NCBI GenBank assembly: GCA_037043015.1
Contig: CM073328.1
Location: forward strand, 17,891,495-17,955,494
DNA from: Bryum argenteum
Lineage: Eukaryota > Streptophyta > Bryopsida > Bryales > Bryaceae
Length of the DNA stretch: 64,000 bases
Direction of reading: 5' to 3'
Part shown: one piece after another, positions 7,381 to 63,459 of the stretch
How positions within the stretch are numbered: the stretch's first letter is position 1
Layout: each line of letters starts with the position of its first letter
Position numbers and translations under genes: made by a program
Notes under the pieces: generated by a model
Database searches by the model: none
What the model saw: only the letters and a program-made list of their open reading frames with translations
What the model was told of the DNA's origin: nothing

Positions 7381-7393
7381 AAAAATTTTTACA

Positions 7394-39050: not shown

Positions 39051-42000
39051 ATGGCTGCCAAAATGGTAGCCATGGTGCTGCTCAGCTTGGGATTCATGGC
39101 AGGCTTAGTTGCGGCGGAAGGTGAGCACGGTCATCCTTGCCAGGTTCGATCAGATTCCGTAGCCAGCGGTGCTCATAGTGTGGCTGTGCAGGTTGGGTGC
39201 CATCGTTTGAGCCGATATTGGGCACAAGGAAGGGCGGCACGCGCATCCGAGTGCAGTCCAGTGCAGCAGGCAGCACGTATCCTTGGTCCGTGTCCAACCA
39301 TTTCCTGCATCTGGGCTTGGATGGCGCAACTCTGGCTGCGGATCACATCGGGCCCATCAGTGACTCCGTGGTGGAGTCTCTCTTCACAATGCCCTCTGCC
39401 TCTGCCACCCAGAGCGTCGTGGATCTTTCCTTCTCCCGCAGTGGCGACCCTTCCGTTGACCTCGGCACTTTCACTTTCTACGGTACTCTCATCCCCATCT
39501 GTTTGAGCCCAATGCATCTCCGACAGAACACACAACCGCACTGAATTATGACCGTGCAAATAGGAGGCTCATATCACAAGGTACAGTATCACCTGTCTAA
39601 TGTTGATTGATAGACGGTCTTGATTCAGGGTGCCCCAACCATTCCAGATTGGCAATTAGCACTGGAGTAGGCCAATATTGACTTACACAATTTTTTCTTT
39701 TTGGTACCCCATGGAAGTGCCTCAGATTGTGGTTGAACTATGCCATATTCAAAGGAATCTGGACTGATTCACGAAATTTGGACTGAAACTGGTTTTGGAT
39801 TGGACATTTCGGTTTGTGAAATGGTTACAATGCCGATCGAAGATTTATGTCGCTAGATCTTAGCATCCGAGAAATCCCCAAACTGATGAGCTGATATCTT
39901 CTTCACAGAGCCATCGGAGGAGCCCTGAAGTAGTTAAATGTAGCATGAAGCTTGTAGTATCTCATCTCTTGTATATACCACTTGAAAAATGTGCATGGAT
40001 AGATATAAGAGCTTTTCTTTCCATCTTGACTCGGAACCCTAAAGTCCGCAAACAGAGGATCACCTTTTGTTTGCAAATTGCAAGTCAAGCTAGATGGTGG
40101 TAAGGAATTGTTAGGACTTGGAGAGGATCGTTGAGTTGAGGATTGAGTTCGTGATGCAGATGGTGATCGACTGGTACCTGAGGCGGTGTCAGGCTACGGC
40201 GAGGATATGTTGTTGGCGTTGAATCCTGCAGTCTTCCCACAGTCATTGGACTGGGAGCAGATCACACCCTCGTGTGGATTCAGAAATGGCACTGTTGGCC
40301 CTGCACACTTCGCTGTTCCGCAGACTAGCAGAAATTTCACAGCTAAAGAGCTTCTCATCCAGTGTGATGAAGGAGCTTCTTCTATATCCTTGAATGACCA
40401 AGAGTACTTCCCCATCTCTCCAGGTAATTCCACATAATTGCCTGCTCAACCGAATCATTTACGAATCATATAGAGCACTGGTTCCCAAGCTTCCAGAATG
40501 TAGCTGCCCTTGTCTAAGTTGATACTTACTTGCATTCGACACAGGATTCAACGTCGATCTTCACAGCGTACATCAAAGCTCTATACTTTATTTTCTTTGG
40601 AGACTAATGTCAACCTTTATAATCCCAGCGCTATTCGCCCTTTTGAAGGATGGAGTCCTGGGTTGGGTTCAGGAGTTTTCTCAATAATAGGGGGGAATGT
40701 TCTTCATTCAAACTGATGATATCTGAGAAATCTACACGGAACTAGAGTTTCCGTGAGTAATCTGAGTTAGAAAGTTAGGAAGTGGAGAGGTTTCAACTGA
40801 TGACGTACTCTCTTCCAAGCAGGGCAGAAACATGCTCGGATGGCTGTGGAGTTAATGCCACCACCACACTATTCACCACCACACTATTCACCACCACTTG
40901 GGCCTGCGTACGAGGAGAATGAGGTCTCCTCAACCTTCTCTAATTGCACACTCTGTAGTTGCATACCTTGAATGAGTAGCAATATTCACTTTTGTCAAAC
41001 ATGTCAAGCTGTGGGCTGGCGCCCATCATCTCCACCAGCTAGAGAATATTGAGTGAACTTTCTTCAGTGACCTAGTAGTGACCTAGTAGTGACCCCCTCT
41101 GTAGATATAGATATCAATGCACTCACTCGATTTTAGAGTACATCTTCAGCTTGTGTTTAGAATGTACATGTAAGAATCCAAAAAGCACCAGATCCGATCA
41201 TGTATGGGAGGCTTGAATAATGTTTGACATTCTTATGCAGTTTCTGAGGGCATGATTTGCTGAACACTGAAAGGGCTTGGTTGATGTTAGGAAGAGATAC
41301 CGAGGAGGAGGTTGAGTGCAGGCCCTGTGTGCACATGCACCGACACGGGGATTGGGTTAGCAATCACGGTGACGTATCTGTGGCCCTCGGATGATTTGGT
41401 GAACGCCACTGTAAACAATGGAGTGACATACTTTGGTTATGGAGGACCGACATCGTTTCTCATTCGCATTACTATCACCACGCCTGGCCAGTATACTCTC
41501 ACGTCCATGTACCCTACTTGTGCTGGTATGTCCTCATCCTTCCTCGCCACTCAATCTGTCAATATGATTGTACTGGGAGTTTTCTGTAGATGCTTTAGAC
41601 GCATTGCAGCTTCATCTTTGACTCTTTCATGCCGACCACTTTATGCTTTGTCATATGTAGTCAACCAAAAGGTTTGAGTATGGAAATCCTTTGACCGCCT
41701 ACATGCTTGAAAGGCCAGGGATGACCAGAATATGGTTGCTTGGTAGATAAACCTAATGAGCAAGCCACTGGTTAAGAGTAGTCATTAAGAGTAGTCATGT
41801 TAGATGAACTTGTTGTTGACTAACATTGACAGGTTACAAAATGTTTTTTGACCTAATTTTCTAACTTTTTTGACTAAATGGTTGGAGCTTCCTAGTAGAT
41901 AAACCTAATGAGCAAGCCACTGGTTAAGAGTAGTCATGTTAGATGAGCTTGCTGTTGACTAACATTAATGAGAGGAATAAAGAGATGAGAAATATTGTTT

Positions 42001-42925
42001 TGACCTAATTTCCAAAATAAATGGTTGGAGCTTCCTATTATCGTTCCATGAATGTATTGTACCATACAAGTTCTGTGGTAAGCTTGGTAATAGTAAAATT
42101 ACATAACATGCTATTGGCTCAATTAGAGACGTTGTCTTTGGAAGGTGCTTGATATAGGGTATGTCTATCTTAGAAATGTGATTTGAACTCACCTAGTTGT
42201 ATATTTGAATAATTGGAAATGGTCATGTTTTTTGATAGTTTGAACTCACCTAGTTGTATATTTGAATAATCGGAAGTGGTCATGTTTTTTGATAGGCTTT
42301 AAAAGATATAGTTGAGCATGCTTGATTTTCCACTGTCAATGCTTCACTAAATGTGACAATTTGGACATGTGCGGCAAATGTGGCATGTGGCATGTGGCAT
42401 GTGCTATTTTTAAGTGTTGTGATGGTCAATTTGAAGCATGATGTATGAGAAGGCCTTTGAATGTCAAACTTTTAAGTGAATAATGGTTGAGGTATTAAGG
42501 ATATAGAAGGTGTAAAATTTTAGGTAGAAGATGTGGTCAGGTTTTTAGTGGTGTGCAATTGTGAGACGTTTTATTGGGAATCTATTGTAAATAAATGTAA
42601 TTTTGATGTCTATAAAGCTTAGGTGGAAGTGTAGTTGGAAGCTTCAATGTATCATCATCACCATCACCTCTATATAGCTACGTGAGTACAACATTTGCAC
42701 CTAGTGGCTATACACCTGGACTGCCAGTGCCCTTTATCATCCAAAGTTCAGATCAAGCTGGAATTGTGCCCTCTGCACAAATAATAGGGCCTTGCCCATT
42801 CAGCGTGACCTTGCAACAAGTTGATCCTTCGAGCATCTCATATCCTGTTCCTTTTACTATTAGCTCCCAATTAGGAGGCACTTGGAAGGTCACTGCTATT
42901 CCTATTCGCTTCTTACCTGTTACTG
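39051..42925 (+). CDS. Giant gene, exons 1-6: signal peptide, IPT-like and first filamin-like segments
   Basis: Exon 1 ends ...LVAAE plus one base. Exon 2 continues GWVPSFEPILGTRKGGTRIR, an IPT/TIG-type start with its GGT turn. Exons 1-3, 5 and 6 all begin and end after the first base of a codon (symmetric 1-1), the class that can be shuffled without frame loss. Exon 4 (from 40545) starts in phase but then seems to need a one-base shift near 40590-40600 to reach NVNLYNPSAIRPFEGWSPG, a second IPT-like start, and no clean donor was found for it. It could hold a sequencing error or a real lesion, or I have misjudged it. Exon 6 (YTPGLPVPFIIQSSDQAGI) is a good Ig-like start. These exons are clearly richer in GC than exons 7-18. 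Confidence 0.6.
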
Positions 42926-45900
42926 GTACTTTCTCTTAACTTTGTACTATTTTATTTCACTATATTGATTTTTGTTTAAGATACTAGTATCTTACCAATT
43001 TTTATGTAAGGTAAGTGAAACTAAGTTCACACTTTGCTTTAACTTACTTGCAACCTGTGTAGGGAATAATGTTCAAAGTGTGAATTTTGAGTTTGAATTT
43101 TGTATTACAGAGTGAACCATCTTATTGCTTTAGCTAGTATTAACTATAATGCGTATAGATGTTGCTTGGGAGGTGACTCCACAGGGGATTTGGTATATTA
43201 CGTGCAACAAATGGGTATTATTGTAAGGGGTATTTTGATGACCAAGATGAATTGAAGGATCTCTATCTTTTCGTAATTTTCCAATTTATGGTATTCTTTG
43301 CCCGTACAAATAATTACAATCCTAAAAGGAGAGAAATCTTTTAAACCCTTACTTTGTTATAAGAAAAAACTTGGGATTAAGAAGGGCCATAATGGTCAAC
43401 CATTACACGCAATTTTTTATCCATCCAAGCAGGTCAACAGTGCAATAATTGACTCTAAAACATTTTCTAGTTTTATTTTTATTTTTTAGGGTATCCTAGA
43501 CAATAAAAGTATGGTTATGACATTATTCACCTACATATCTCTATATATAAAAGAACACAATTAGGGTTTTGTCTCTCCTTCCTTGGTGATCCACCATACA
43601 TGCATGGTCATGGTCATGATCATGGCCATCATCATTTGGTTATGTATATATGATCTGAAGAGTTTTAAAGATTTTGAAAAGTTTCTGTCAGTAGTATTTG
43701 ATCATTATTAAGAGTTTATTAGGTTCCAGCAATAGAACAAGGGGTCGAAGGGACAAGGAATGTGGAACATGTAAAATGGGAGCAAACTAAGGAGTAAACA
43801 GGAAATCAAGGGATTATGTGAGGAGAACTAGGAACCGAGAAGAAAATAGAGGAACTAGAAAGAGAGGATGAGAACAATGAACAAATAATGAGATTCACAA
43901 ACAAATGATGAGAACTAGGAACAAACGATGGAAAACTAGGAACAAATGATGGGAACTAAGAAGGGAAGTTGGGGAGTGGGGAATCGGGAAAGAATGATGG
44001 AAACTAAGGGGGGATGGAGAACCGAGAGCCAAAGATTGGCAAGTGGGAACAAGTGACAGCAACTAGGAACGGGAGTTTGGAGATAGGGAACCATTAACAA
44101 AAAATTAGAGAATGGAACATGCTATAAATCTTGAAAAGCACGAGGAATCGAGAAGAAGTGAACACAAGACATTCTAAGGGACAAGGAATGTGGAACATGT
44201 ACAATGGGAGCATACTAAGGAGTGAAGAGAAGATTGAGGGAACATGGGACAAGAACTAGGAACTAGGAACATAGGATAGGAACGTAGAACAAATAATGAG
44301 AACCATGAACGAACGATAGGTACTAGGAACAAACAGGAGTTTAGAGATAGGGATCCATTAATAAAGATCACAATTATATAACAAGGAGTGAAAGTGATAA
44401 GGATTATAGAACATGAAAATGAGAGCAAAGAAGGAGTGAACAAGAGATCAAGGGAAAATCAAAGGAGAACTAGGAACTAGGAACTAGAAACCAAACATAA
44501 GAGAACGAAGGACATGCTACCCACATCTCGATTTATTACATGTTTTTTAGGATTTCAATTTGACCTTTCTGATGTCAGTGTCCGGAGGACACGAGTAAGG
44601 ACTTGTCCTACTTATAATTGGATGTTCAATAATTTGTACACCCTATCATCTCAAAGTTATTTTTAATTTTTAGACACCATGATACTATACCCTCCTACAT
44701 TATACCGCACATTGCTTGGTAAAAAATTTCTAAGCAACCCCCCTAAGAGATGTTGGCCTAAACTAATATAGAGAGTTCAAGGTTAATATTAGATTCATCA
44801 AAAGTGCCATTATTAGTAAACAAGGTTGAAAATGACATTCATTATAGATGTTTAGAATTAATTTTGTACTCAACACCCTCCTATGTATATATTGTACATA
44901 TAAAAACCTAGAGCCTACAGAAGGTATATGAAGCATATTACTTCCAAACATGTGTTTTAAAACAGAGCACTTATTCAAGTAATTTGTTGTAACCACATAG
45001 ATTATGCCCTTAGTACATATTAGAGCTCTTGTAGGTCCAATCGGGTAGTGGAGGTCCAAGACAATCTCAGAATAATATTTCTTGTGCGTGGAAGTTCCTA
45101 TAACTTTAAATTATGAGATCTCGTTCAAGTCCATTACAACAATTTACTCACCAACTTTTAGAAAATTTAACCGTACAAATCTTTAGATATGTTAATTCAA
45201 AGTTTAACATCCTATTAGAGCACCACTTGGACATGATGCCATTGATGGCTCCTATTTCAAATTTTCATCAAATATAGTTGGTCTTTGTTGACAAAACAAG
45301 AATATGAGTAGTTGAGTCCAAGATTTTAAATTTTTACAAACTCTAACCCTTGAAACACCTTGAGACCTAAAAAGGTTTTTCTATTCTGGGCAGCCTAGAT
45401 GAAGGGTGTAGAATTTAGAATTTTGATTTATATTTATTTATCATACATATTTTTTATTCTTTATGTTACTTTTTACTTTTTACTTTTTTTTTTTTTTTTT
45501 TTTTTTCTTCTTTTCGGTACTGTAGGTTGATAGCAAGTTCAAGTTACTAGCTAGCTAACTCATCAATTCAAATGAGCCACTCTAACACTTACTAAATACA
45601 AAATCAATTAGATATTATTAAAATAATTTTAATAATACTATGATATTCTTTGTGCTAAAACTTTGTCTCAATTTAACATATTGTGTACAATGTAATATAC
45701 AGGAACAATAATGTTGGAAAATAATATAATCACCAATGGCAATATCAGTTTTAATTTAAACGCTTTAACTACATCTCAAGCATCATCTATTTTTATCATA
45801 AAACCTGACTTAAACACCCAAATATCAGTTGGACCCACGGTTTTTAGTGTTGATTCCCAAGATAATCTTCCAAAGTATAATCTTATACATATAATATCGT

Positions 45901-48900
45901 TAAAGGTACAAATTAGAAATGACTTCAAATAAGTTGTATATTTAGGTACATATTTATTTCTTTTTTCTATGTGTATAAATCATTATTTACAAATTTGAAT
46001 TTAGATTGTGTAAAATGAATTCAATGTACTAAATAAATCTTTCAGCTTAGCATTGTATTCCTATAATATGTAATTATACAAATTTCCTTTGCTAGATAGT
46101 TGATCCAAGTGGCTCAACCATTCTTCAAGTTACATGTAACTTCGAAAGAACAAGTGTTGGATGTTATTTTCCTTTGGTTCTTACACTAGCCGGTTCGTAT
46201 ATAATTCGCGCATCTGTTGATGGTGGAACATTACTCGCCGATAACGTCGTTTTGAATGTATTGCCCGGAATGATTTCAGGACCAAATAGTAACTTTTCAT
46301 TGATAGGGATGTCTTCAACAAACATCACTAGGAAAGTTGCTGGCGATACAATAACAGCCCAACTTACACTACAAGATATATATGGCAATCAAGGAAATAC
46401 AAGTTTCAATTTAAATGGTTGGAATACATCAATTACTATAGTACTCAGAAATAAAAAAGGAGGGGTTGCCTATATGAATGTCAATGCTGGGTTGGGAACT
46501 GCTACAGCAAGCACTATAATAACAAAGGCAGGATTATATGTGGCAACTGCATATATTGGTTCTACAGGAAATATCTTACTTGGATCTAATATGTATTGGT
46601 TTTATATTCACCCGTTTACAACAAGTAGCATAGGTAATATTTTGTACATACAACGTGATTATTTGTGTCTTTTAATAAAATCTCACCAACGACTATAATT
46701 GAATTAAAAAGTTGTTCATTTTCATCTTAACCCCTAAGCGTCCTTGGGTCCAAAAACTGGACCCAAAAGATGCATGGTCTTTGAGGAGCTGTATCTCCTA
46801 TGACCACTGTTGGATTTCAATTTTATTTTCTGGGTTGGAATCCAACTCAAGTCTAGTTTTTGTTGTAGAAGTTTTAATGTCATCTAATATGTTTTGATGG
46901 ATTTTAGTGCAAGAGGTTCATATTTGGACCAATCTTCATTTGTAGACTATGAGGCAATTTTCAACATTGCAAGGCTATGGTTTGGATGGGGACGTCTAGG
47001 GATTTTAATGACACCCTTGAACCAAAAAAATACTTCAATTTTATATATATTTTTATTTTTTATTTTTTATTTTTTATTTTATTTTTTATTTTTTATTTTA
47101 TTTTTTATTTTTTTTATTTATTTTTTATTTTTTATTTTATTTTTTATTTTTAAAATTTTTTTTACTTAGACAGTAGCCTTGCAATAGTGAAATATGTTAG
47201 AATTTTTACAAGGAAATCTAGTCTGGAACTTTAACAAAGGAAAACTTGTCGGGAACTTTTACAAAGGAAAACTAATCCTTAACTACACCCCTCGCACTCA
47301 AATCCCTACAAGTCTTATTGGGTGAAGATTTCTACCACTAGAACTAAACTTGTTTGGACTTCATCCAAAAAAATAAAGTTGAAATCCAATGGTAGATAAA
47401 TGAGATACAACTTTGCAAAGACCATTTTTTTTTTTTTTTTAAATTCATCAAAGTACTATTAATGCAAATCCAATACCAAAATTATTTCAACTAGAATCAA
47501 GAATTTCTTACTCGGAAGTTGTTAGATTTCAAAATTGACAATATTAATGATTATCAAAGTCAAGGGATGAGCATGATTATAGTCCTACACTTACTTATTT
47601 GGACAAATGTTCAAAGTTTTGACAATAACTTCAATTAGTTATAACCAAATGTAAATTAATGACCTCGTCAACTTTGAATAATAATACAAAAAATCATTAC
47701 CCTCTCAATAAGTAAATATCAATAACAAAAAATATATGTTTTATATTTAGAATGTGTGTACTTTGACCTTCTAGATGATAGTTTATAATGGACAATATTT
47801 CAGGTTTCACTGGGAATTTGATGGTTGGAAGGATGATAGCTGGACAATCTACTCCAATATGGGTAGTGATATTGGATACTTATGGAAATACAATTGATGG
47901 ATCCAAACTCTCAAAAACAATCCCTCTTGTTATACATTGGAATAATCAAACATATAACACAAGCAATAATGGTCGCATTTTTGAGCTTTTGCCTGGCATA
48001 AATCAAACTATTGCCACCACAAATATAACTATTTCAGCTTCTTATAATGCTACACAAATTGCAACCTATAGTGCTACTTGTTTACCAGGTGGAATTTACT
48101 TATAATCTATACATCCTAAGTAATAATTACACGTCTTGTAAAAGTTACATTAATTTAGGATTTGAATTTTACATTTGAATTTTTTTATTATATATTTGAT
48201 GAATAGGTAATAGAATTTTGATGGTGTATTTTATTGGTATATAAGGCTATAAGTAAATGAACTTTGCTATTACACTATACATCAGAAGTTTGACAATTAA
48301 AATCTCATACCAATTATAGGACCACCCGATGTTGTACATTACAACATAACATTCTCCAGAACAAAATTTAGTGTTGGAGATAATGGAACCCTTCTCCTTT
48401 CTCTTATGGATAGTTGGGGGAATCTTATTGATCCATTAATGAGTGATTTGCCTTTCTTTGGAACTCGCCTACTTCGTGTCCAAGATATAAATGGCGCTTT
48501 GTATTCAGGGGGATGTAATTTGTACTACATACGACCAAATGGTACTATCACAAATCCATATTTATTTTCATTTACCTTACCTACTATAGCGGCTGATTAT
48601 TTTGCACTAATACCTCTTGTTGGCAAAACTATTGAAAGTATGCCTATAATTCATGTTGATGCAAGTAGTCCAATAGCACGAATGTGTACAATTAGTGGTG
48701 TGACTGGTATTGAGCCTATTCCAAATTCAATGTATTCAATCTATGTTACACCAAGGGACATTTATGGAAATATATGGTTTGGCAATGTTTCATCGATACC
48801 TATTTTGATAAGTGATCCTACTAACAACTTGATACCCCAATCAAGTTTAAGTATCACACCCCATCCTATTATGGCATCAATTGTAACTTTCAAGACTCCA

Positions 48901-51900
48901 AATACTACCGGGTTGTGTAGCATTTCTATCCTAGGCATTGATCCTGATTCAACTTCTACTAAAATATTTTTTCGAGTGATTGCGGGAGATTTTGCTAAAC
49001 TCCAAGTAGAAGAAGTTTCTCAAGGTGTAGTCGAAGAGTTTTCTTCATTTTCTTTGATTGCGCAAGATGCTCATGGATTTGCTAGAGATCAATCAAGTAT
49101 TCCAAGTGACCGATTTGACTTTAAGTTGTGTAACCAAGCTTCAAGTGTAATTACATGTGGACAAGCTACAATTGAAGACCAACATCTTTCAGGAGGTCGT
49201 TATTTAGTAACTTGGAGTGCACCTTTACCTGGTGAATACACTGTAAACCTCAAAACTCCAAATGGGTATCCTTCTCCAATAGATAAGCTTGTTGTAATTG
49301 CAACTCCACAAAAAAACCAAATAGTTTATTATCCAAGATGTGATAGTGTTCCACCATCTATTGCTACATGCCGACAGTTTTTTGAAGTTATTGCCGGTGA
49401 AAGAGCATCATTTAAACTTGCAGCCTTTAATGAACCTTTGGGTGGACCTCGTACAACGATAACAACAGGTGGGAATCTACCAGCAGTATTTATGACTGGT
49501 GGAAATATCATCAACCTTATTGATGAAAACAATGGCTTTTATTCACTTTCATATATGGCAACGACAGCAACAATAGCAACTATTACAGTTACAAATGGAA
49601 TTCCAAATAATATCTCAATCAATGTCATCCCGGGAAGGTCAAGTCCGCTAAAGTCATATTTTCAACTTAGTTATAATCTTCAAACAACATATGTTGCGGG
49701 AAGTATCATATCAGGAGGTTTTTATGCCCTTGATAGTTTTGGTAATCAACAGGATTACAACTACTATAATAGCAAAAAAGACTATTTTCAAATAGTGGCT
49801 CTCAATACGTATGGTGAGAAAATTAGGGGAACAATAACATTCCATAACAATTCCAAAGGAATGTATGGAGCCGTTATGTTTTTGAATCGAATAGGTTCAT
49901 ATACACTTATGGCAACACTACATGATTATGCTATACCTATTTATGGAAGTGATAATCACACTTTAACAATAGTAAAGTTTGGTGTTACTTGTGGTGGACC
50001 TGATTTAGCTGCTATATCGTATGTGCCAAAAACAATGCGCTATCATGCACTTCCAGGGATGAATGGAACTATCTCCATGTATGCAATTAATGATAGGTTC
50101 GGGAATTCCATTCCTCGCAATACATTAAATTGCTCATCTTCAATACTTGACAAATGGGGCACCCCTTGGCAAGTAGGATCATGTACGATTTTTGATGATC
50201 ACATTATATTCAAATGGTATAATGTTTTTCATTCCGATGATATTCAATTCCAAGTTTTCACAAGACTAGGGAGTGACAGTATTTCTGTAACAAATAGTTT
50301 GCAAATTGCAACACTTGCACCTTGGCCACCATTGTGTTCAATTATTACACCTAATTTATATACATCAGTTATAGGAACAAAGACCACAATAGACTTTATT
50401 TGTAGGGATAAATATAATAATTTATGTTATGGTGACCGATCAGGACTCTTTAGTGTTGTGATTGCCCACTTAGGAGGTTCTCCATATGACACACCTATGT
50501 ATGCAAGTATGGGAAAGGCAACAAATGTTTCTGTAAACGATGGACACTACGTAGCATTTTTTGTTTTGAATTTAATAGGAAAGTTTACAGCAGTCCTTAA
50601 ATATGGTGATATTCGAGGTGTATTAATTGGCCAACCAATAATTATCTCATCTTTACCTGCTAATACATCCGTAGCATTGTCATTTTTATCTTTTGTCGAT
50701 CCAGCTAAAAAAATCCTAACCAATAATGCTCCAGCTCAAATTACTGCCGGTGCAATGAATTTTATGAAGATTGTAGCTGTAGACATAAAAGGAAATTTAC
50801 AAGACATCTCAATGTGCAACAATAGCACTATTCCAATTATAACAATTTCAACAGATGATATGGGTTTTGATGGAAGTGGAGATGGCGTTAGTCCTTTTAT
50901 AACAAATCCTTTGGCTTCGCTTGATACTTCAAATTCAAACTGTGTATATTTATTTGATTTTACACTTACAGCGGTTGCTAAAATCTCAAGTATTTCATCA
51001 GTACCTGCAACCTATTCAATACATGTCTCATGGACATCCAACTCGAATTCCACATATAGCGATATTTCAGGAAGTCCATTCGTATTTCAAGTTCATCCAG
51101 CTTTATTAGATGTTCAAAGTTGTGTACTTTCTACATCAAGTCGTAGTAGTGGTTTCAAAGGTTTATCATCAAGTTTTCTTCTTCATACTAAGGATTTGTA
51201 TGGAAATAAACCAGCTTATTCACAATCTTTACTTGTCTCAGCAATAGTAGCACCGGCTGGAACATATCCACCTCATTTACGTCGTCTTTTAAATTACAAT
51301 AGTATACAGAAATCAGGGGACAGATCTTATGGCAACAATAAATTAAACAATGAATTAACAATGATAAAGGATCTGAATAAACAACTATTACTTATGTCAC
51401 CAATTGTTACAAGCAATGGAGATACAACCTACAGTATATCATTTACAGTAATAAAATCAGGAGCATATGATTTATATGTGTATTTAAACAATGAACTCTT
51501 GGTACCACCTGATGAATCAATAGCATCTCTTTCAAATTGCTATGTGGGCCCTGGAATACCAGACATAACTCAAATAAGACCAATTGGAGTTGGTATCGGA
51601 GATGGTATTAACCTTGTAATTGGAAAGCCTATGACCCTGAAGATTTTCCTTTGTGATATTTTTGGAAACCCAGTTAGTTTAGCAAATGCACCAAACTTAC
51701 TAAGTAAATATATGAATGGAATATCAAATGCATCAAGGATAACAATGTATAGAAGAAACATCCGAAAACTCACTCCTACAATAGTTCCTTCAAATCTAGG
51801 AGGAGTGTCGTTCTCTATTTCGGGAGGCAATATCATATTTTCATGTACACCTACAATGGCAGGCATAATGAGTTTAGACTTAGCTTACATTGATACAAGT

Positions 51901-54900
51901 ATTACCAACTCTATTACTTCTATCCTTGGACCTTTTCATATATCTGTTATAGCAAATGGGACTGCTTCACCGTCGACATTCCGAGTTTTTGGACCCGGAG
52001 TTGTAGCAGCTGCTGCATGTGAAGAAGATTTGTGTCCCATGAATACTATGTATATTAAAATTAGTGATGCATACAATAATTTGCTTAATCTAGATATCAC
52101 ATTGTGTCAAAATTTCTCTATTATAGGTTGGAATCCAAGTCTTATGATTGGATTTACAGGCAAACCAATTTATGACCATTTTTGTTCTATCTCATGGAAA
52201 CTACTTCCCAGCAATCCACCGCCATCGGTTTCATTTAATGTTAGCTTCACACATCTTGACGGCAACATTTATCCCATTCTTGCAGACTCCCATATTACTA
52301 CAGTTGATGGAAGTGGATATAAGTTCACGGTCCCCATTTTACAAGAAATACTTGATCCTGATCCAGACAAATGCATAGCATTTGGTGATCTTGGGGGTTT
52401 GATGATGGCTGGAACTTCTGGACACATTGTAGTTCAACTAATTGATTCAGGAGGTATAGCTTTGCAGAATAGCCCATCAACAACAAGTGATTTTGTACGA
52501 CTTAGTATCATTTCAACAAATCATGTGGAAAATCCACCTTTACCACCAATAGTTAATTCTATTGATAATGGTGATGGAACCTTTAGCCTTCAATACGATA
52601 CAATAAAAACTGGAACGTTCACCATTCTAATTCTTGTTGGATATTTGAGCAGACCACTTGGTGGAAGAAGCATAGGATATCCATTGAAAGTAAGTCATGA
52701 TTATACTACTTTACTTCATATTTAGTACTACAAGAAAATAGGAGTAGATAGTTGTTTATTGGTTTATTTCTAATAATTATTTTATCAAAATGAATTCTAT
52801 CCTAAATGTATAGGTGGTTGCCGCTCCTTCTATGATTGAAAGTACCATAGTGGTGATGGTTAGTAACGGTACAACCTATCGTGCAGGAAAAGATCATGTC
52901 CAAGTTCATGTACAAGCTGTTGACAACTATCTCAATTTACAAGATCATATTCAAAGCCAAGTGGATGGATTTCAAGCAAGGATTCTTCACCCTGACAATT
53001 CAATAGCAATTGTGCCATTGGATCGATATCAACAAAATTCAACAGAGACTGGCAATCCATATGTATATTGGCTGCTCAATTTCTTACCATTACAAGCAAG
53101 TGGAAGAAGTACATATTCATTTCATATTGTGTGGAAAAATGACGCAAATGAGATATTCATTCCAAGCGCAGGGCTAATAATTCCAACAATCTCTGGATCA
53201 TTGTATCCACCAAATACAAAAGTATGTATAACATAACCTCTTAAACAATGTCACAGTATAAAATGTGAAATTTATCGATAAGAAATTCTTGATAAGAACT
53301 TAGAAGGTGATCAAACTAATTTTTAAAACCCTTTGGAATTTTTTAAGGTAGTGAATTTTAGTGTGTGGTTAGCAATTCGAGTTGGAGTTACAATATAAAG
53401 TTCTTATAACGAAGCCTCCAAAATACTTGATATGCAAAGATATGATACCAAATTATACCAAGTCTGTTTTTGAGAGAGAAATACATGCATATTATAAAAA
53501 ATAGAATGAAATAGAGTATCCTATAAATGGCTATTTTATACTGTTAATAAATGATCAATATTAAAAAATAGGTTGTAGGTGCTGGATCAACTATTTCAAT
53601 TGTTGGTCAAATATCATCCTTCACTATTTTGTTTTTTGATATTTATAACAATGCTATAAGCAATATTCAAGATTTAGCGCTAGCAGAAGTATCAGCAATG
53701 TTGTTTTTAGGAGGAAATCTTACAACAATTCAAGCAAATTGTTCAATTTCATTAGACCCTGCATCAAGTTTGTGTCAGTATGTGGCAAGTACACCGGGGC
53801 ACTATGTGCTCAATATATATTCATGTATGAATATACTTATCTAATATCTTTTTCCATAAATAAATTGTGCAAGATACAAAATTTATGAAAGTCAATTTTT
53901 TCTCACTTCTATATGATAAAGGAAGATTTGATGAGACCATAACATCGCAAATATAAAATTACAATTTCTCTAAGTGAAAAAATTAAAAAATTAGAAATAT
54001 TACTTTATTAATAAGTAAATCTTCAAAAAAAAAAAATGTCTTTATTGAATTATTGTACAAGCCAATAAGCACAATAAGAGTCAGTATAATCATAGACAAT
54101 TCATTGTGCTTGCTTTGAAGTTGTACTATTACAAAATGACCTTACTTTTTCATTCACAAACTAATATATGGGACTTTCATGATGCAGCTTCAACAAAGAT
54201 TACTACATCAAATGTTCTTGTGAAACCAGGTTTAATCAATGGACCCAATTGCCTTGCTTTTGGTGATGGAATAGGAACAAGTAATGTACTATTGTATCCC
54301 GGAGAAACAACCTCATTTGGCATTCTAGCTTATGATCTTGCAAACAATTCTATTTCGGATAAAAAAACATATTTTGAAGTAAAAGGTGAAAATATCAATC
54401 AATCCGGAGTGATCGTACCTCAAGATGGATTTCCCAAGTACATATCCGAAAATTCTTTCCAAATTCAGTATACACCACTCAAAGCTGGCCTTTATGATAT
54501 TTTCATTCAAAGAGCAAATGTAGATATTATGGGTTCTCCTTTTCAAATTGCAGTTCAAAATGGTCCAATAGCTCCAAATTGCATCTTAGATGAAGAAAGT
54601 CTCCGACCTTGTGTAGTAATGAGTACAAAAAACATCACATTATGGTCGCGTGATGCATACGGGAATATTCGAATAAATGAGCAAGATGTTTTTCAAATAT
54701 TCACAGTTGTTGATGGATTTCCTCATCTTGGACTAGTAGATACTATGACTCGCTTAGGATCGGGGGCATATGGATTTAGTTTTCCATGTATGAATGACAC
54801 TTTTATCCAGATTATAAATGATGCAACTTTAGTGTACTCCGGAAAGATACATACATTAGTAGGGCCAGCTGATCCTAAACAAACAATGTTATCACTTGAT

Positions 54901-57900
54901 GATGTTTTTATTCCAGCCGGTAAATATGGACATGGACTTGTTATTACAAGAGACTTTGCCGGTCATCAATTAAGAACCGGACAACAATCTCTTTTCATTG
55001 AATATGGAGGCAATAATGGTCAAGACAATGATACAATGATGGTTATTGATCGAGGTGATGGTACATACGACTTAACTTACATGGTGTTAGTTGCAGGCAT
55101 TTACCAACTACAAGGCACACTAAATGAATATTGGCCATTTTATGATGGAATTTTATTAGTCATTCCAAGTGCACCTTCTACAGCTTCTATCTATTTCGAT
55201 CCAAATGGATATGTAGTAGGCATGGCTGGAACCTTTCAAATACAATATTTTGATGAACATCAAAATAATATAACTGATAGTTCCGTATTAGACACTAGTA
55301 GTTTAAGTTTATTTTGCATGAGTTGGGACGTTCCTTCTCGAAGTGCATTGTATTCATCTGCAAATCTAGGCATACAGTTCAATTCAACCACTGGATTTTT
55401 TACAGTTACATTTCAACCAACAATGGCTGGAAATATATTTGTTAATTTAAAAGTTGGTGGTGTTGATATTCTTGATGAAGGATACCCATTTTCCACCAAT
55501 GTTGACTATTTACCACCGGTAGCTTCCAATTTCGATATATGGGGGGCTGGAATTGAATTTGGAGCTGTGAAAGGAGAAAATACTTATTTTTATGTTCGTA
55601 CACGAGATGCATTAGGTACCATAATACCTGGCGAACCTACCGATATCTTTGATATTCACTTTCTACCAGATTCAACTACTCAATATGGAACATCATCTGC
55701 ATTTTTGAGTAATGGGGTTACAATGTTCACTTACAGTCCTATATATGACTTATACACAATAAGTCTTAGTTATGGTGGTAAACAAATAATTCCCCCCGTG
55801 ACTTTACTTGGAAAAGATGTAACACTTTTAACAAGTATAAGAGATTCTGTAGTACTTGGTCCAGATACTACTGAAGTAAGTACCTCTGTTCCATTAATGC
55901 ATGTCGTTGGACCTTCAAATACAAGTTTACAATTTTCAATACAACCTCGTGATCAAGATGGAATAATTATTACAACACCAAATCCAAATTGGTTCGTTCC
56001 AAATTTTACTGTATCAACTTCAAACGGACCATCTTTTAACGTTGTTAACCAGGTTGATGGTTGGTGGTATCAATTTTCTATTCCTATACAAGAACAAGTA
56101 GGAGATATATATGTAGAGGTTTCTGGCTATGACACTGGTGTTCTTACATATGTAAAAAATAGTGGGTTTACTATAAGTTTCATTCCTGATATTTCAAATG
56201 CATCGAACACACAACTTGTCCGAAGCTCATTAGATCCGAATGGAATTTCAAGAATAAGAGCAGGTGAAGTCATTGAAATCACCGTGCAACCATATGATTC
56301 ATATAAAAATAAGCAAATTTATAATCTTTATCTTCCCGATGTTTTTTCAGCAGCATTATATTCTATTCCGCTCAACGAAGTTGTTGGAAAGAGATCCATT
56401 GGACTTCATAATGGTGACTTTACGTATACCATGAGATTGAAACCAACTACAATTGGACTACACAATGTGATTGTGAGCTTAAATAAAAATGGAAATGGAT
56501 CTGAGAAATGCTTTACTTATCAAGTAGCAATAAGTGCTTCTAGTGTATGGTTGCCAAATATACTCATTGTAGATTCTGTTTATCCTATGCATGTTGATTC
56601 AACGACAAGTTTGCTTATCTCTGTGAGTGATAAGTATGATAATCCTATTACAGATGCAAGTGATATCTATTGTGTTTTCCAAAACAATGTCACATATGCA
56701 AAATACAATACTATAGTTGTAGCTTCAAATGATACAGAAGGACAATTTTGGATAACTCATACTCCTGTAAAAGTTGGTCACTACCACATAGTTTTAGGTG
56801 ATGGGCTTAGTCGGAACGGTGGTCCTACCATAACTTTGATGGAGGTCAGTGTATTTCCAGGACCGATAGCGCTAGACAATACTAAAACTTCTGTTCCTAC
56901 AGAAGTTTTTGAAGTTGGTCAATTGGAAACATTTACAATTATTGCTCTAGATGCCAAAAGTAATCCAAATTACACAATCCCAAGTGTAAAAATCTACTAT
57001 GATGGTGGTTTCATTGATGCCTTGGTAGTGTCACCATGTACTGTAAATGCTACTATAGAAAGTCCTCGGCATGAACCGTGGTGGTGTATGCCAATAGCTC
57101 CTTTGTATACATCACACATTAGTTTTACACCAATAACATATGGAACCGTGAATATCACAATTATTTGGGATGCTAACACTAATATTACATATAATTCAGT
57201 TCTAATTCAGTCAAGTACAAGACCTATAGCTTTAAGTGCAAAATTCTCCCAAGATCTAGGAAGCATTATTGTAAAATTTGATATTCCTACGGATGCTGGA
57301 TACTTAAGTTTCAATGGTCTTTCAAGTACATATGCTTCAGGATGGCAACGATGTAATAATACTCTTGATTTTGCATTCATGGAAAAAATAGGTGTTAATC
57401 CAAATTGTATTTTTCAAGATGCAACAACTATGATCATTCAACTTGGTTATTATCCTAATTTGAAGTCTTTAGACTCTAGTGGAGGTGATAATGTTTCAAT
57501 CTCTACTGGCATATATGCTAAAGGAGATACATCAACTGCAATCACTGGATGGATCCCTCTTGGTATTATTGACATGTTTCTACTTCCTATTGCAAAATTA
57601 AATGGCCCGTGTATTACAAGTGTATGTGATCCTGTAATTCTTGATGCATCTAGTTCAACGGGGGCCATCGGTCAATCGTTTTATTATCAATATAGCGTAA
57701 AGGGTACGGCCAACCTTATCAACCTTGCAAATTTGGGAGCATTCTTAGAAAACTTGCCTTCGCAAATGATCATTACAATAGATGCTGGAATATTAGATCC
57801 TGATCAAACATATATTTTTAGTGTTACTATCACCAATTACCTTGGAATTTCTAACACAGCTAAACATGTTGTTCGAACAACTAGTGCATCTATTCCTCAG

Positions 57901-60900
57901 GTATACTACTCCTCTTTACATGCTGTAATTTAAGAATTTAGTTTAATATAGTGTTCTTTTTGTTTGTATTCACTCATAAGTAGTTGATAGAGTAATATAA
58001 TTATCTTATTCTAAAATTTCATAAGAATCAAACATCTTTTTGAGCCATTTTTTACACCGTATTTAAAAATTTGAAGAGACTTTGTATCAACTTTATTTCA
58101 TGTCAAGTACTCAAGTTATTCAAGAGATTTAATTTTACTCTAATAACTTTCATTTGATTCAAATTTGGAATTTTAACTAGAAAGTTGTTACCTTTATCTC
58201 AAAAGAAACGTGGTCTAAAGAAAGGTACTAACAAAAATTCTTTGCTCAAATACTAGTCTTATGATTTAAAATCTACTTTAAATGCTATGAAGAATAAGAA
58301 GATAAAATGTAAACCCCTTGCACAAGTTGCATGATTTTTTTCTGTAACATCTTCGATTGAGATAAGATTTCTATCACAACAACTAAATGTAAATTGGCTT
58401 TTCACTCAACATAAAGCACTGAAATCAACTCCTAAATGTGCCAAACGTTGAATGTGATTAGTTTGATGGCAATTCAACAATTTGAAGAGCCAAATTTTTT
58501 TCATCTGAACTCCATTTTTGAGGAAATTTGTTGAGTGGAATATCATATGAAGTCTACTAGTGGTGAAAGCATTATCCCAATTGAAGATGTTATAAATTTA
58601 TGGCATAAGTTCTTGTGGCAATTCCATTTGTTTCTCCTTTTTGAAACATGTGGCATGTTTCACTATTCAAATCCTTTTTAGATTAAGAGATTCTTCTTCA
58701 TGAACTAGTTGTTTTGCCATGAATTTGTTCTTACAAAAGTGTGGTCTTAAGTTGATTTCCACAACTTCCTAGTTGGAACTTGGAAGTTATTTGATTCAAA
58801 TACTCTCCATTGGCAATGCAATTTGATGTGTCCATAATGAAAAAAGTGAATAAGTGGATGATATTTGAGGAGTTGTATCTCCTTCCTCCATTGCCGAATT
58901 TCAACTTTATTTTCTAGGATGGATTCCAATTAGAGTCTAGTTTTAATAATAGGAACTAATGAATTCTTATAGTCTTCTTGACAACAAATTTTTAATGACC
59001 TTCTAAGTATTATGTAGCTGCGTGATTCCAAATTTGATCTAGTTAATTGAACATAGACAACCAAAACTAAACAAATATCACTCTTGCCTGAAGTGATACC
59101 ATACTATTCTATTGCAACATAACCTTGCATTTTATATTCCTCAAAGAATTGCAAACTCCACTTTTGATTTCATCTAAATAAGAAGTATCATAGAATCAAA
59201 CTAAATTCTATAGCAATATAAGGAGATAAGTGTAAAAATGCATGAGATTATCTACAGGTATCAATCCGAGATCGTAAAACCTTATTAAATGTTATGAGAT
59301 GGGATACGATTGAGGTTGAAGCAGATGCTCATTTAGCCAATTTCAACACATACCAACTTGATGGAACATGCGGATCCAATGATAAAGTGAAAAGCATAAA
59401 TTTGAAACCTTTGATCCAAGCAGCGTTGATGTATGAGTGGTCATCAACAGGTCCATCAATTCTGAATGCGAATGAAATCGGATGGAACGCTCGAAGTTTG
59501 AATTTGCCCGGAAATATGCTCCGTGCAAATACACCCTACACCTTCCAAGTGAAGGTTTGGCCACAAGGATCACCGCAACTTTTAGCCACAACATCAATCA
59601 CCGTTCAATCTACTTCATCCCCACTAGCAGTTGTGATCGTTGGCGGTAATAGATTAGTCAACATAAGTGAAGATTTATATCTTGAAGCGGCAGTTTTCGA
59701 CCCTGACGATTCAATCTCCGAATCAGGATTCGATCAACCTTATCCTTTTGAAATATCATGGAGTTGTGACAATATCATTCTAAGTGATCACTTTGATTCT
59801 ACATTGTATCTTGATGTACCCGGTTCGATCAAAAGAGTGCTTGTTATAAAATCATCGTGGTGGACTCTAGGAACAAATTATACATTCACTGTTACGGTAC
59901 GTTCCTACATCTTTGACAAAGACAATATCCTTAATACAATGGTTGATACTTTAGAATATTGAGAAAGTACTATATATATATGTATTTTTTACAGTATCAA
60001 GATACAACATCTTGTAGTACTTGTCCATTACAACACTTTTGACTCTGTTATTTGTGATTGAGTCATAGATGAGTTGTTCAGGACGGTCTTAATTGTAATC
60101 AACAAGTTGTAAAGAAAACTGTTTTCTAGAAGTGTTGACCATAGTACACCAAGTATAGTAGGAGGATAATAATGGATATGTAGGTAGTGAATCTTTTAGT
60201 TTTTCATGAAATATTAAGAGCATGGACTTCCTCACAAAACAATTAATAATTGTTGAAGGTTTATAAGTATGAGAAACCAAATGGATGAACTATCTTTCAT
60301 AAACATGTCACCAATTGATAGTTTATTCTCAATTTCGATTGTATCTCAAAAAAGATAATGTAGTACTTTAAAAACTATTGTATGTTGATAGTTCAGTTGA
60401 ATTATGGAGTGAGGATGAGATACCAAGCTTAATATGATAAAATGTTGTATATGTTATCAAGTATTTCATGTTTTTTTTATTTTTATAATAGGTAGCTCGA
60501 GCTCCATATACAGATCCATCACGAAGTGCTGCAAAAGCATCTGTGCTAATTATTCCTACAACTAATGTAATGAATGTGATAACTAGCATAAATAATGAAG
60601 CAGAGGTACGAACCTATGGTATTCCATCAGCACGCATGCTCAAACTTGTGTGTAGTCCTGGATTCGGTTTATATGATTGGTCCGTAACTTCCGATAGCGA
60701 TCCTCGTTCAAGCAAGGATATGCAGGTAAACAGAAATGTTATATCTACCAAGCCATTGTAATGTGTCATGTTATTTGTATAAAAGATTTGATCCTAAACA
60801 ATGAAAAACAAGGCTCTCATTTATATGTTGTTGTGGTTTGTAGTTGATGAAACTTGAAGACAATGTACTACACATTAGTCCATTAACACTTATAGGAGGA

Positions 60901-63062
60901 GCTACATATAATTTTACTTGCACTGCAACAAGTCCAATTGCAAGTGGTAGTGGCTCAATAATCTTTTCAGTTTTACAAGAGCCTTCAGGTTTTGCATTCT
61001 TACACTCAGTTGTTTAATATATTTGAGTAAAAAATAAAAAATAAAAATGAAAGCTAAAGGATGAAAGTATTAGTACAAAAACACAAGATTTAAGATTATT
61101 GTAAGTAGAATACTTTTGAATGATCATTAACCCATTATTACTTATTGTGAATATTTAGGTGGAACGGTGGACCTAGAAGCATATCCTCTAAACACAAATG
61201 TTGCTGAAAATACTTCATATTCACTACGAGCTTATGGATGGACTCCCGGAGGCAATTTACAAGGAGAATTGAGATATGAGTTTCGTTATCTAGTGATAGA
61301 TTCAAGAGGGAAAGTTGTAAAAGAGTTTATCATTCAACCGGCTTCCACAAAGAACTTTGTAAACCAAGTTTATGTATTGCCTGGCACAATTGTATTTCGA
61401 GCTTACATAATCAATCCTGGACCATTCCGGTTTATGCCTAATGATGCACCACATGGAACATTGTTTGAATTTTCACCAATCAATATACAAGAGAACAATC
61501 AAAAAAGAAGACTACTTTCATTACCTCCATTAATCACAAACTACTATGATTACGCTAAAAAAGGAATGTATTATCGTGCACTTATTAGCATTGACTCTTA
61601 TGCTTTCACAACATTTCCAAATCTAGCAGGTGCTTTATACATAATTTTATTAATATATACAATATATCATATAAAAACAACATTATTTAAAAAATATTCT
61701 TATTTCTAGGATACGTATTTATACATAAAAGTAGAAACTAGTTATATAAATCTTTTGACTACATTATCATAAATTGAAAACACTAAATATTTTTAGAAAC
61801 TTCAAATAATATAATGCATGTGAAAGTCATGACCTTAAATTTTTTTTACGAAACCAATGATGATGAATAAAAATCTTAAATGACCTTTGTGATACATAAT
61901 AGGTGGTTGTGGTGGAGGAGGAAACAAAAAGGTCATCAAAGATATGATGAAGCTTATAGAAATCAATGATCCCCAATATCCTATAGCTAGTTATGGAAAC
62001 ATTGTTCAATCCGGATCAGGCCCTTATATTGCTTATTTAGTTGCAAATATTTACTCAAGAATTGTGGAAAGACCCGGTAATTTAAATTTAGACGAATTTA
62101 GGATGGCTTTACACATATTTCTTAAAAAACTTGAAAAAGTGGCAGCCTTTGGATTAAAAGTTCCAACCACATACACAAATCCCATTGAAGTATTTTTGAA
62201 TGCCGGAGATGCATTTGTAAAAACCGTAAAGTTGAAATGTTTCAAAACTAGTACTCAAGCACAAGCTATGATGGATAGAGCTTCTACTATTCCAATTATG
62301 CTCGCACAAATGATATATCGAGATGTTGGTTTTATTTCACTAGCTAGTTACGATCGTCCAACATTTACCATAAATGCACTAAGTCTCAAATTACCTGAGC
62401 ATCCATACAATCCACTTGGGGGCCCCCTTTATTTAACTGGACAGATGAGAAACTTGTATGTAACTATTGCAGTTGCCAAAGGTGGTGGACAAGAGTTTGG
62501 TATTACATTGGCATCTTTCAACAAGTTTAGCCCTCTATCTACATCTGGAATAGCATCACTGAACCATGATAAAAACTTCTTACAACTTGTGGTTGTATTT
62601 GACGTTTTGGTTCTTGAGTTGACACCAAATGATTTCGAATCACTTACAATCACATGTACTTGGACAAATCTCCTTCCAATCACTAAAGGCTTTGCTTACA
62701 GGGCTATTCAAATTGATAAAACGGGTATAGCCAATAATTCCACACTACGAAACATCATTTCTATGGTTTCAGGTGTTTCATTTGACCTTGTGGGCTCTTA
62801 TTCTCGAATAGCCATTATAAAAGTGAAAGCTGACAAAAGTTTCACACCAATAGGATGGTATGGAATCCATGAAAAATTCAAACCACCTTTAGATCCAATA
62901 AAAACAAACAGGACGACGCGAGCAGGGTTTAGATATAGGAAGAATGTAGAACAATCTTTGTTAGTTCGTAGTACAGGTGTTTCTCGATTTAAGGGAAGGG
63001 CATTGTGGTTCCTCTTTCAAAGGATGTTTTTGGTGGCAATTTTGAGCATATTGAACATATAA
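39051..63062 (+). CDS. Giant surface protein: IPT-like, >20 filamin-type repeats, REJ-like region (~4,500 aa)
   Basis: About 18 exons can be chained: 39051-39120, 39192-39482, 40160-40423, 40545-~40715, 41322-41525, 42623-42925, 45703-45905, 46096-46633, 47804-48088, 48320-52689, 52814-53221, 53572-53824, 54188-57900, 59258-59896, 60492-60725, 60844-60988, 61159-61629 and 61903-63062. All introns used have GT...AG ends, and codon phase fits at each junction except around exon 4. The product starts with a signal peptide (MAAKMVAMVLLSLGFMAGLV) and an IPT/TIG-like part. Many filamin-type Ig repeats follow, marked by D-x-YGN and IxGSPF motifs, then a REJ-like region and a unique C-terminal domain. 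Filamin-type repeats occur in the plant gamete adhesion protein GEX2, and REJ domains in polycystin-1 proteins. A role in sperm-egg or ciliary surface recognition is inference. Exon skipping or a two-gene split cannot be excluded. Confidence 0.75.
41740..41975 (+). repeat. Direct duplication in intron 5, ~90 bp units
   Basis: GATAAACCTAATGAGCAAGC, the following GTTAAGAGTAGTCATGTTAG and TTGACTAACATT occur twice, at about 41745 and 41896, with small differences. A further pair of ~58 bp units (TTGAACTCACCTAGTTGTAT) lies at 42184-42296. Confidence 0.8.
43735..44510 (+). repeat. Purine-rich GGAAC/AACTAGGAAC minisatellite in intron 6
   Basis: Irregular repeats of AACTAGGAAC, AATGATGAGAAC, GGGAAC and similar words fill about 780 bp. 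A longer unit (GGGACAAGGAATGTGGAACA) occurs at about 43760 and 44178, with a decayed third copy near 44390. The same vocabulary is seen at 36175-36390. Confidence 0.8.
44550..44620 (+). repeat. Dispersed repeat shared with 34340-34410
   Basis: TGACCTTTCTGATGTCAGTG and the following GTCCGGAGGACACGAGTAAGG resemble the segment at 34340-34410 (TTTGATGTTTGTGTCTGGAG, then GACACGATTAAGTAC). The core GTGTCCGGAGGACAC is itself palindromic. Confidence 0.6.
45485..45507. repeat. Poly(T) run in intron 6
   Basis: More than 20 consecutive T residues within a pyrimidine-rich tract. Confidence 0.8.
45703..48088 (+). CDS. Giant gene, exons 7-9: filamin-type repeats
   Basis: Exon 7 (45703-45905) and exon 8 (46096-46633) are joined by a phase 0 intron inside one repeat; exon 8 and exon 9 (47804-48088) are joined in phase 1. 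Filamin signatures are visible: AGSYIIRASVDGGTLLADN, LQDIYGNQGN, AGLYVATAYIG, and LDTYGNTIDG in exon 9. Each repeat is about 95-120 residues, slightly longer than the animal filamin repeat. Many N-glycosylation sequons (NIT, NTS, NQT) fit an extracellular location. Confidence 0.75.
46772..47427. mobile_element. Inverted-repeat element in intron 8, ~105 bp arms
   Basis: 46772-46877 is matched in reverse complement by 47321-47427. Shared words are ATGGTCTTTG, TGTATCTC, TTGGATTTCAA, TTTATTTT, GTCTAGTTTT/GTTTAGTTCT and GTAGAA. The interior includes a long TTTTATTTT tract (47041-47156). A related arm lies at about 58855-58950 in intron 13, so this is a family of intronic foldback elements. No coding content is seen. 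Confidence 0.72.
47041..47156 (+). repeat. TTTTATTTT low-complexity tract
   Basis: Over 110 bases are composed only of T and A in TTTTTATTTT-like units. It lies inside the intron 8 element. Confidence 0.9.
48320..52689 (+). CDS. Giant gene, exon 10: ~1,456 codons with about 11 filamin-type repeats
   Basis: This exon of 4,370 bp is open throughout, with acceptor AATTATAG before 48320 and donor GTAAGT after 52689 (phase 0). D-x-(Y/F/W)-GN-like centres recur at roughly 48409, 48756, 49063, 49731, 50091, 50406, 50779, 51190, 51655, 52066 and 52441, a spacing of about 100-155 codons. Repeat ends read like DISGSPFVFQV (near 51065). Cys pairs occur in several repeats, which fits disulfide-bonded extracellular Ig folds rather than cytosolic filamin. 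A basic insert at about 51270-51310 (LRRLLNYNSIQKSGDR) interrupts one repeat. Confidence 0.88.
52814..53824 (+). CDS. Giant gene, exons 11-12: filamin-type repeat
   Basis: Exon 11 (52814-53221) follows TGTATAG and ends before GTATGT in phase 0. Exon 12 (53572-53824) follows AAAATAG and ends after the first base of a codon. Motifs include YRAGKDHVQVHVQAVDNYLN, LFFDIYNNAISN and TPGHYVLNIYS. The junction with exon 13 rebuilds a Ser codon, so the frame is kept. Confidence 0.75.
54188..57900 (+). CDS. Giant gene, exon 13: ~1,237 codons, about nine filamin-type repeats and start of REJ region
   Basis: Acceptor ATGATGCAG precedes 54188. The open frame continues upstream of it only by chance. Repeat centres include SRDAYGNIRIN (about 54648), TRDFAGHQ (54948), TRDALGT (55602), PYDSYKN (56295) and VSDKYDNPITD (56629). 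The ending AGLYDIFIQRANVDIMGSPF (about 54484-54540) is a textbook filamin repeat end. From about 57220 the sequence changes to a REJ-like pattern: FSQDLGSIIVKFDIPTDAG, GPCITSVCDPVILDASSSTG, and DPDQTYIFSVTITNYLGISN. The exon ends at TCCTCAG before GTATAC, phase 0. Confidence 0.87.
58350..58950. mobile_element. Decayed relative of the intron 8 element, in intron 13
   Basis: 58855-58950 (GAGGAGTTGTATCTCCTTCC, then TTTCAACTTTATTTTCTAGG) is close to 46785-46880. A weak reverse-complement partner (GATTTCTATCACAACAACTA) lies near 58365-58430, suggesting the same foldback form in a more worn state. Confidence 0.5.
59258..60988 (+). CDS. Giant gene, exons 14-16: REJ-like region
   Basis: Exons 59258-59896, 60492-60725 and 60844-60988 join in phase 0 and end in phase 1. 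The product carries LRANTPYTFQVKVWP, LYLEAAVFDPDDSISESGF, ISWSCDNI, LGTNYTFTVTV and GGATYNFTCTATS. These alternating Y-x-F-T-V/C strands and the early D-P-D/S-W patterns are those of the REJ module of polycystin-1 and sea urchin egg-jelly receptors. The match is by eye and remote. Confidence 0.7.
61159..63062 (+). CDS. Giant gene, exons 17-18: end of REJ-like region and unique C-terminal domain
   Basis: Exon 17 (61159-61629) has GGTVDLEAYPLNTNVAENTS and LRAYGW, then LRYEFRY, matching the G-G...P...T...GW...L-Y-F pattern near the end of REJ regions. Exon 18 (61903-63062) encodes a Gly-rich joint (GGCGGGGNKK) and about 370 residues of unrecognised domain. It ends in a basic patch and a short hydrophobic tail (WFLFQRMFLVAILSILNI) that might anchor in a membrane. 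No PLAT domain, ion-channel segment or polycystin transmembrane bundle follows. An alternative donor at 62976 (CAG before GTGTTT) with an acceptor near 63102 (TTTACAG) would swap the tail for about 20 other residues. Confidence 0.72.
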
Positions 63063-63087: not shown

Positions 63088-63340
63088 TTGTGTTTACAGT
63101 TTTGTTTGATGATTATCTTGATGTTAGGACGCGGATTAGAATTAAAATGTCACTTTTATAAATTATGTATGAGCTTGTATATTAAAAAATACATAATTAT
63201 GAGCCTTACAAGTCCATATAGTTATATAAATATGAGAAATTATACATATCACAAATTGTTGATTATCATCTTAGCTTCTTGTAAAATTTTCTTAAGTAGT
63301 CCAGAAGTACAATATACATAAGTTAGTATACCTATATATA
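63088..63340. other. 3' flank of the giant gene; no gene seen
   Basis: A/T-rich with frequent stops. It probably contains the 3' UTR. AATAAA-like words are common by composition and none can be singled out. Confidence 0.4.
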
Positions 63341-63343
63341 TTA

Positions 63344-63445: not shown

Positions 63446-63459
63446 TATTATTTTTGTGG

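Follow-up and report, generated by a model that had tools for sequence, protein, structure and literature searches.

A predicted giant gene of the moss Bryum argenteum joining filamin-type repeats, a REJ domain and a GAIN-like domain

The SpREJ/PKD1 family is defined by a REJ domain of ~600 residues, usually accompanied by GPS, PLAT and 1-11 transmembrane (TM) segments; SpREJ1 and SpREJ2, which lack the 11-TM part, carry one or two TM segments, and both PKD repeats and REJ unfold in steps under force (PMC1934368). In Ectocarpus, five REJ-like proteins are expressed in male gametes only (PMC3879662). In the green lineage, GEX2 and FUS1 have a common seven-Ig ectodomain and a role in gamete adhesion (PMC12069490, PMC8784728), and plant filamin proteins, surveyed in 23 species, fall into the FLMN and GEX2 subfamilies and have 1-2 filamin domains (PMC9777546). 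Here, a 64,000-nucleotide stretch of the Bryum argenteum genome (assembly GCA_037043015.1, contig CM073328.1, positions 17,891,495 to 17,955,494), referred to as the window, was analysed. It contains a predicted gene, the window gene, whose product combines parts of both kinds of system and fits neither the FLMN nor the GEX2 subfamily.

Gene model, paralog, repeats and REJ domain

The window gene was chained by hand from 17 exons on the + strand, in one frame from the ATG at 39051 to the TAA at 63062, with GT/AG borders in 16 of 16 introns. The coding sequence of 13,551 nt would encode 4,516 residues with a single terminal stop. A first-pass annotation had described about 18 in-phase exons and a product of ~4,500 residues with a signal peptide; the in-phase chain and the length stand, the exon count is corrected to 17, and the predicted N-terminus is hydrophobic and signal-peptide-like. 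In a 19-residue hydropathy scan, values exceeded 1.6 at residues 1-26, 3513-3532 and 4496-4516. The features are as follows, in window coordinates.

39051..39120, + strand, exon 1: residues 1-23, signal-peptide-like start
39192..39482, + strand, exon 2: residues 24-120; IPT-like on motif alone, no Pfam support
40160..40423, + strand, exon 3: N-terminal region; 5' junction at residue 121, phase 1, same in paralog A
41322..41525, + strand, exon 4: N-terminal region; 5' junction at 209, phase 1, against 204, phase 0, in the A model
42623..42925, + strand, exon 5: N-terminal region; junction at residue 277, phase 1, same in A
45703..45905, + strand, exon 6: N-terminal region; junction at 378, phase 1, same in A
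46096..46633, + strand, exon 7: first clear filamin-type repeat (residue 509, ~46285); junction at 446, phase 0, same in A
47804..48088, + strand, exon 8: filamin-type repeat; junction in phase 1, at residue 625 against 624 in the A alignment
48320..52689, + strand, exon 9: residues 720-2176; filamin-type repeats; Pfam Filamin 5.9e-17, Ig_GEX2_N 1e-6
52814..53221, + strand, exon 10: filamin-type repeat
53572..53824, + strand, exon 11: filamin-type repeat
54188..57900, + strand, exon 12: residues 2397-3634; filamin-type repeats to ~57183; Pfam Filamin 1.3e-25, Ig_GEX2_N 1.1e-16
from ~57211, + strand, REJ region in exon 12: start placed by eye
59258..59896, + strand, exon 13: REJ domain; best Pfam REJ stretch starts at ~59432
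60492..60725, + strand, exon 14: REJ domain
60844..60988, + strand, exon 15: REJ domain
61159..61629, + strand, exon 16: end of REJ region; best Pfam REJ stretch stops at ~61352
61903..63062, + strand, exon 17: GAIN-like domain (predicted) ~61905-62834, low-confidence linker, hydrophobic C-terminal helix ~62991-63056, stop 63060-63062

The genome (258.8 Mb, 25 contigs) was searched, and a full-length second copy, paralog A, was found on the minus strand of contig C5 (~14850250-14871777), colinear by tblastn with residues 33-4464 of the window protein. Paralog A was modelled using a spliced-alignment script that was given the window protein without exon borders; both ends were finished by hand, and exon 1, which is hydrophobic with a phase-1 donor, was chosen by hand. 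The model comprises 4,529 residues with a single terminal stop and is 46% identical to the window protein across 4,434 aligned codons. Ten of the 16 window introns occur at the identical residue and phase in A (121, 277, 378, 446, 720, 2177, 2313, 3848, 3926 and 3974). The intron at residue 625 has its counterpart one residue off (624) in equal phase, that at 209 (phase 1) corresponds to 204 (phase 0) in the A model, and the first (residue 24) is in equal phase in A, whose exon 1 was hand-chosen. The window introns at 2397, 3635 and 4131 have no equivalent in A; conversely, introns at 2859, 3483 and 3732 are peculiar to A. Of 55 cysteines, 43 are common to A. Identity to A is 40% in the N-terminal region, 45% in the repeats, 50% in REJ, 57% in GAIN and 34% in the linker plus tail; the N-terminal region of the window protein evolves faster, and the rise in identity from tip to base matches the expectation for a receptor with a variable tip. 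A further locus, copy B (C5 ~13286700-13290100; L015, ~13.29 Mb), duplicates the last part of A in truncated form and contains stops; by eye its similarity to A is much greater than that to the window gene.

The window protein contains 12 instances of the motif D-x-[YFW]-[GN]-N, against a mean of 0.22 and a maximum of 3 in 500 shuffles. A repeat profile begun from this motif, iterated and self-trained, identified 23 tandem repeats at an independent E-value below 1e-3 plus two weaker ones in residues 509-3395, and one weak match upstream (residues 300-386). The corresponding stretch of paralog A likewise holds 23 + 2 repeats. All 25 of the 25 repeats compared (the ends of weak ones having been extended by hand) found their best match at the corresponding position in A, which argues that the array was complete before the duplication. 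Because the profile was self-trained, Pfam was used as the independent check, on the open frames containing the exons; the two largest frames matched Filamin at 5.9e-17 and 1.3e-25 and Ig_GEX2_N at 1e-6 and 1.1e-16. A sequence search of exon 12 against solved structures returned Filamin-B (E 0.0079), and the exon 12 alignment gave eight rows at E<=0.1, of which several are filamin domains and the best reaches 0.00023. More than 20 filamin-type repeats had been claimed in the first-pass annotation, and this count holds. The IPT-like module that it also proposed was not borne out: neither paralog had an IPT/TIG match at E<=10 in its N-terminus (HMMER filters drop most matches above 0.1). A GGT-type resemblance was noted by eye alone.

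Pfam REJ matched the exon 13 frame alone at 4.2e-10 and the spliced C-terminal 1,124 residues (3393-4516) at 4.4e-25 in two stretches, of which the spliced-protein scan positioned the best one: residues 3693-4038, across exons 13-16, covering profile positions 16-372 of 452. The REJ-like C-terminal region proposed earlier is therefore upheld, and the absence of any significant filamin or REJ match, named beforehand as the outcome that would count against the annotation, was not what the Pfam scans gave. Six conserved cysteines mark the REJ domain of PKD1/SpREJ; a comparison limited to the two paralogs shows seven in common in this region. Genome-wide, three REJ candidates were scored and all three matched; they correspond to the window gene, A and B.

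The gene, its repeats and its REJ domain are almost certainly real. That two or three adjacent genes were joined by eye into an artefactual chain is extremely unlikely. The chain is built on genomic sequence and its longest intron, before exon 6, spans 2,777 bp; yet A has 107 bp in its place, the 13 junctions that can be paired with A each include at least one intron of <=565 bp, and the REJ score improves once exons are joined. Judged from its sequence, paralog A strongly supports single transcription, as the claim of one giant gene had it. The truncated, stop-bearing copy B on C5 might invite the view that the window gene is itself a decaying relic; this is scarcely credible beside two open frames of ~4,500 codons, splice sites and 43 of 55 cysteines common to the window gene and A, and one relative that is 78% identical along exon 12.

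The GAIN-like domain, C-terminus and relatives

The 310 residues after REJ are silent in Pfam and were modelled, with medium confidence, as a GAIN fold having a helical subdomain A and a beta-sandwich subdomain B. That they form this fold is supported by the model and we consider it probable; the predicted GAIN-like domain is newly recognised in this analysis, and the first-pass annotation had likewise passed over the hydrophobic C-terminus, the full-length paralog and the relatives in other assemblies. Folded as a single sequence, exon 17 gave no usable model (predicted local distance difference test score 35.5). The GPS forms part of a GAIN domain. No Pfam GPS match was obtained at E<=10 in exon 17 or its paralog counterpart, and none of the 15 sequences that extend to the last-strand position has the HL-S/T triad there. 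Non-cleavable GAIN domains exist (PMC12488864). PLAT gave no match in the scanned stretches (exons 6 and 11 were not scanned singly). Exon 17 protein matches in the genome comprised the window gene, A and B only (3 of 3 candidates). Searching exon 17 and its alignment against solved structures by sequence returned weak, unrelated rows only, and a viral fold library gave five rows at E<=0.001 with template-modelling scores (TM-scores) of 0.06-0.22, none convincing. Rows below the curated Pfam cut-offs were set aside (Invasin_D3, DUF3244, CBM_4_9, K319L-like_PKD, SH2, DUF1081 and Chlam_OMP6 (P0007)).

One hydrophobic stretch ends the protein and could be a single TM segment. Such a terminus (16-residue mean hydropathy >=1.6 followed by 0-9 residues) was found in both paralogs and in 11 of 14 exon-17 relatives; of the other three, P0022 and P0023 terminate earlier and P0017 has a lower value (1.09). 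Judging by hydropathy, the segment may be a glycosylphosphatidylinositol signal or a near-tail-less TM helix; proteins anchored by such a signal are marked by an omega site, a hydrophobic end and the lack of a cytoplasmic tail.

Relatives in other assemblies surfaced only with exon-sized queries. Among the 7,973 best candidates for exon 12, nine proteins matched, at 44-78% identity, and exon 17 returned 14 proteins among the 7,990 best candidates; residues 2050-4516 searched against a protein database gave none at E<=0.001 among the 1,347 best candidates scored. Contigs of lengths 107,406, 21,046, 11,303 and 23,493 appear in both exon lists, which suggests that exons 12 and 17 sit together in four other assemblies. 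When 11 rows were placed in a tree, a window group (7 rows) separated from an A group (4 rows) with support of 100/100. No description jointly covering a REJ domain, filamin and moss/Physcomitri was found in openly licensed PubMed Central papers; one may exist elsewhere.

Proposed function and genomic setting

In the mechanism proposed, a single gene would encode a secreted protein on the outer plasma-membrane face, anchored through the C-terminal hydrophobic segment. About 25 filamin-type Ig repeats would form a long rod holding the variable N-terminal tip off the membrane, and REJ followed by the GAIN-fold domain would form the base of the rod. With no self-cleavage triad and no channel after it, the molecule would be a single covalent chain able to bear tension and would itself be no channel; any signal would travel via a partner. 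Membrane anchoring, rod shape and tension bearing are all things we infer. The protein is rather likely to be a long tether or adhesin. Adhesion-type repeats on a base like that of egg-jelly receptors and polycystin make it a candidate for sperm-egg or cell-cell contact, and it could act as an adhesin or tether between gametes (swimming sperm and egg). This gamete role is put forward tentatively. It is plausible because the same genome has matches to the HAP2 profile on C2 (the best at 4.6e-15) and radial-spoke matches, the best at 1.6e-34, on C9, which point, by sequence similarity, to gamete fusogen and flagellar genes, and it also fits what has been published on the part that GEX2 and some REJ proteins play in gametes. 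The complete explanation, an anchored filamin rod on a non-cleaving REJ-GAIN base working in gamete contact, is accordingly offered as a possibility that falls somewhat short of probable.

The same molecule might instead be a general surface adhesin, or a wall or mechanical sensor of gametophyte or sporophyte tissue, with no tie to gametes, a serious candidate that we would not call probable. In its favour, nothing specific to gametes came to light, expression of sea-urchin REJ genes extends to embryos and adult tissues (PMC1934368), and the two gene clades could each work in a different tissue. Against it, the membrane-anchored filamin proteins of the surveyed plants are the gamete-linked GEX2 subfamily (PMC9777546), and the only other filamin matches returned here are two C10 loci (4665097 and 4696288, L025 and L026, 31 kb apart; they are among the 4 matches that 11 scored candidates gave), the former showing by eye a filamin repeat with CCCH- and RRM-like stretches and looking intracellular. 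A true polycystin-1-like receptor, with channel or TM exons overlooked downstream, would account for the REJ-then-GAIN order, which is that of polycystin-1, and the genome has one PKD_channel match, on C6, barely above cut-off (23.5 vs 22.4 bits, E 0.0042). That match lies on another contig and was rejected as a polycystin channel, appearing by eye (with no family scan) to be a two-pore channel; with PLAT unmatched in the stretches scanned, and A and 11 of 14 exon-17 relatives ending <=9 residues past the hydrophobic stretch, such a receptor is very unlikely. The window protein also departs from PKD1/SpREJ in failing the GPS test, and neither PLAT, in the stretches scanned, nor a channel was found. 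The genome search with the Ig_GEX2_N profile returned the window gene only; because it missed paralog A too, the absence of a separate GEX2 gene is not established.

Elsewhere in the window, positions 1-16000 have a higher GC content (0.52) and carry retroelement pieces on the - strand, namely a reverse transcriptase (11243-12127) and an integrase (9343-10773), with a second integrase-like frame seen by eye near 1802-2593 on the same strand. A gene at 34810-35574 (+) contains DUF751 (5.2e-19), which we take to be Ycf33-like, with an N-terminal extension, and is perhaps plastid-targeted. A 56-bp hairpin, 95% complementary, lies at 63338-63451, ~275 bp past the stop of the window gene, and presumably has Stowaway-like ends.

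Comparison with described systems

With GEX2 of flowering plants and FUS1 of Chlamydomonas, the window protein shares filamin-type Ig repeats, an Ig_GEX2_N match and a C-terminal hydrophobic segment, the domain matches (Ig_GEX2_N 1.1e-16, Filamin 1.3e-25) falling in a protein of secreted type. GEX2 is roughly 1,000 residues long, is expressed in sperm and acts in gamete attachment. The window protein is far from that plan in size, with ~25 repeats and 4,516 residues against seven Ig-like domains, and it adds REJ and GAIN, which are unmentioned in the sections of PMC12069490 consulted. Plant FLMN, an intracellular protein with filamin and RRM, shares the filamin repeat and resembles L025, not the window gene. 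The GAIN domains of adhesion G-protein-coupled receptors (BAI3, BAI2, CELSR1 and latrophilins) are 7-12% identical, with a best-match TM-score below 0.5, and unlike them the window protein has no 7TM region and no HL-S/T triad at the expected place. Ectocarpus Esi0130_0068 is likewise a non-animal REJ protein, higher in male gametes; it differs in its 1,427 residues, GPS domain, polycystin channel match and 6-7 TM segments, and filamin repeats are unmentioned in the parts of the sources drawn on (PMC4700764, PMC3879662).

That the window protein is a green-lineage counterpart of the egg-jelly-receptor/polycystin-1 ectodomain, giant, channel-free and non-cleaving, with GEX2-type filamin in place of PKD repeats and tethering sperm to egg or archegonium, is a speculative reading that we regard as unlikely. 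If it were true, REJ-GAIN would have been used in gamete recognition before, or independently of, joining a cation channel. The locus unites part sets usually treated separately, one being the filamin-type repeats known from plant gamete adhesins, the other the REJ-GAIN base known from polycystin and animal sperm receptors. With its two paralogs, it is a tangible candidate for a part in sperm-egg contact where plants have swimming sperm, and it offers a natural setting in which to ask if REJ-GAIN functions when neither cleavage nor a channel is present. Polycystin-1 and SpREJ differ in having PKD repeats where the window protein has filamin-type ones; the GPS triad is absent from the window protein, the family's GPS domain before the first TM segment has no match in it, no PLAT or channel was found in the stretches scanned, and the host is a plant. 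Shared with them are the tandem outer Ig-fold repeats, the very large secreted ectodomain and the order of REJ then a GAIN-like domain, which is the membrane-proximal order in polycystin-1 and the sea-urchin egg-jelly receptors. By analogy, the window protein would work most like the ectodomain of polycystin-1 or SpREJ.
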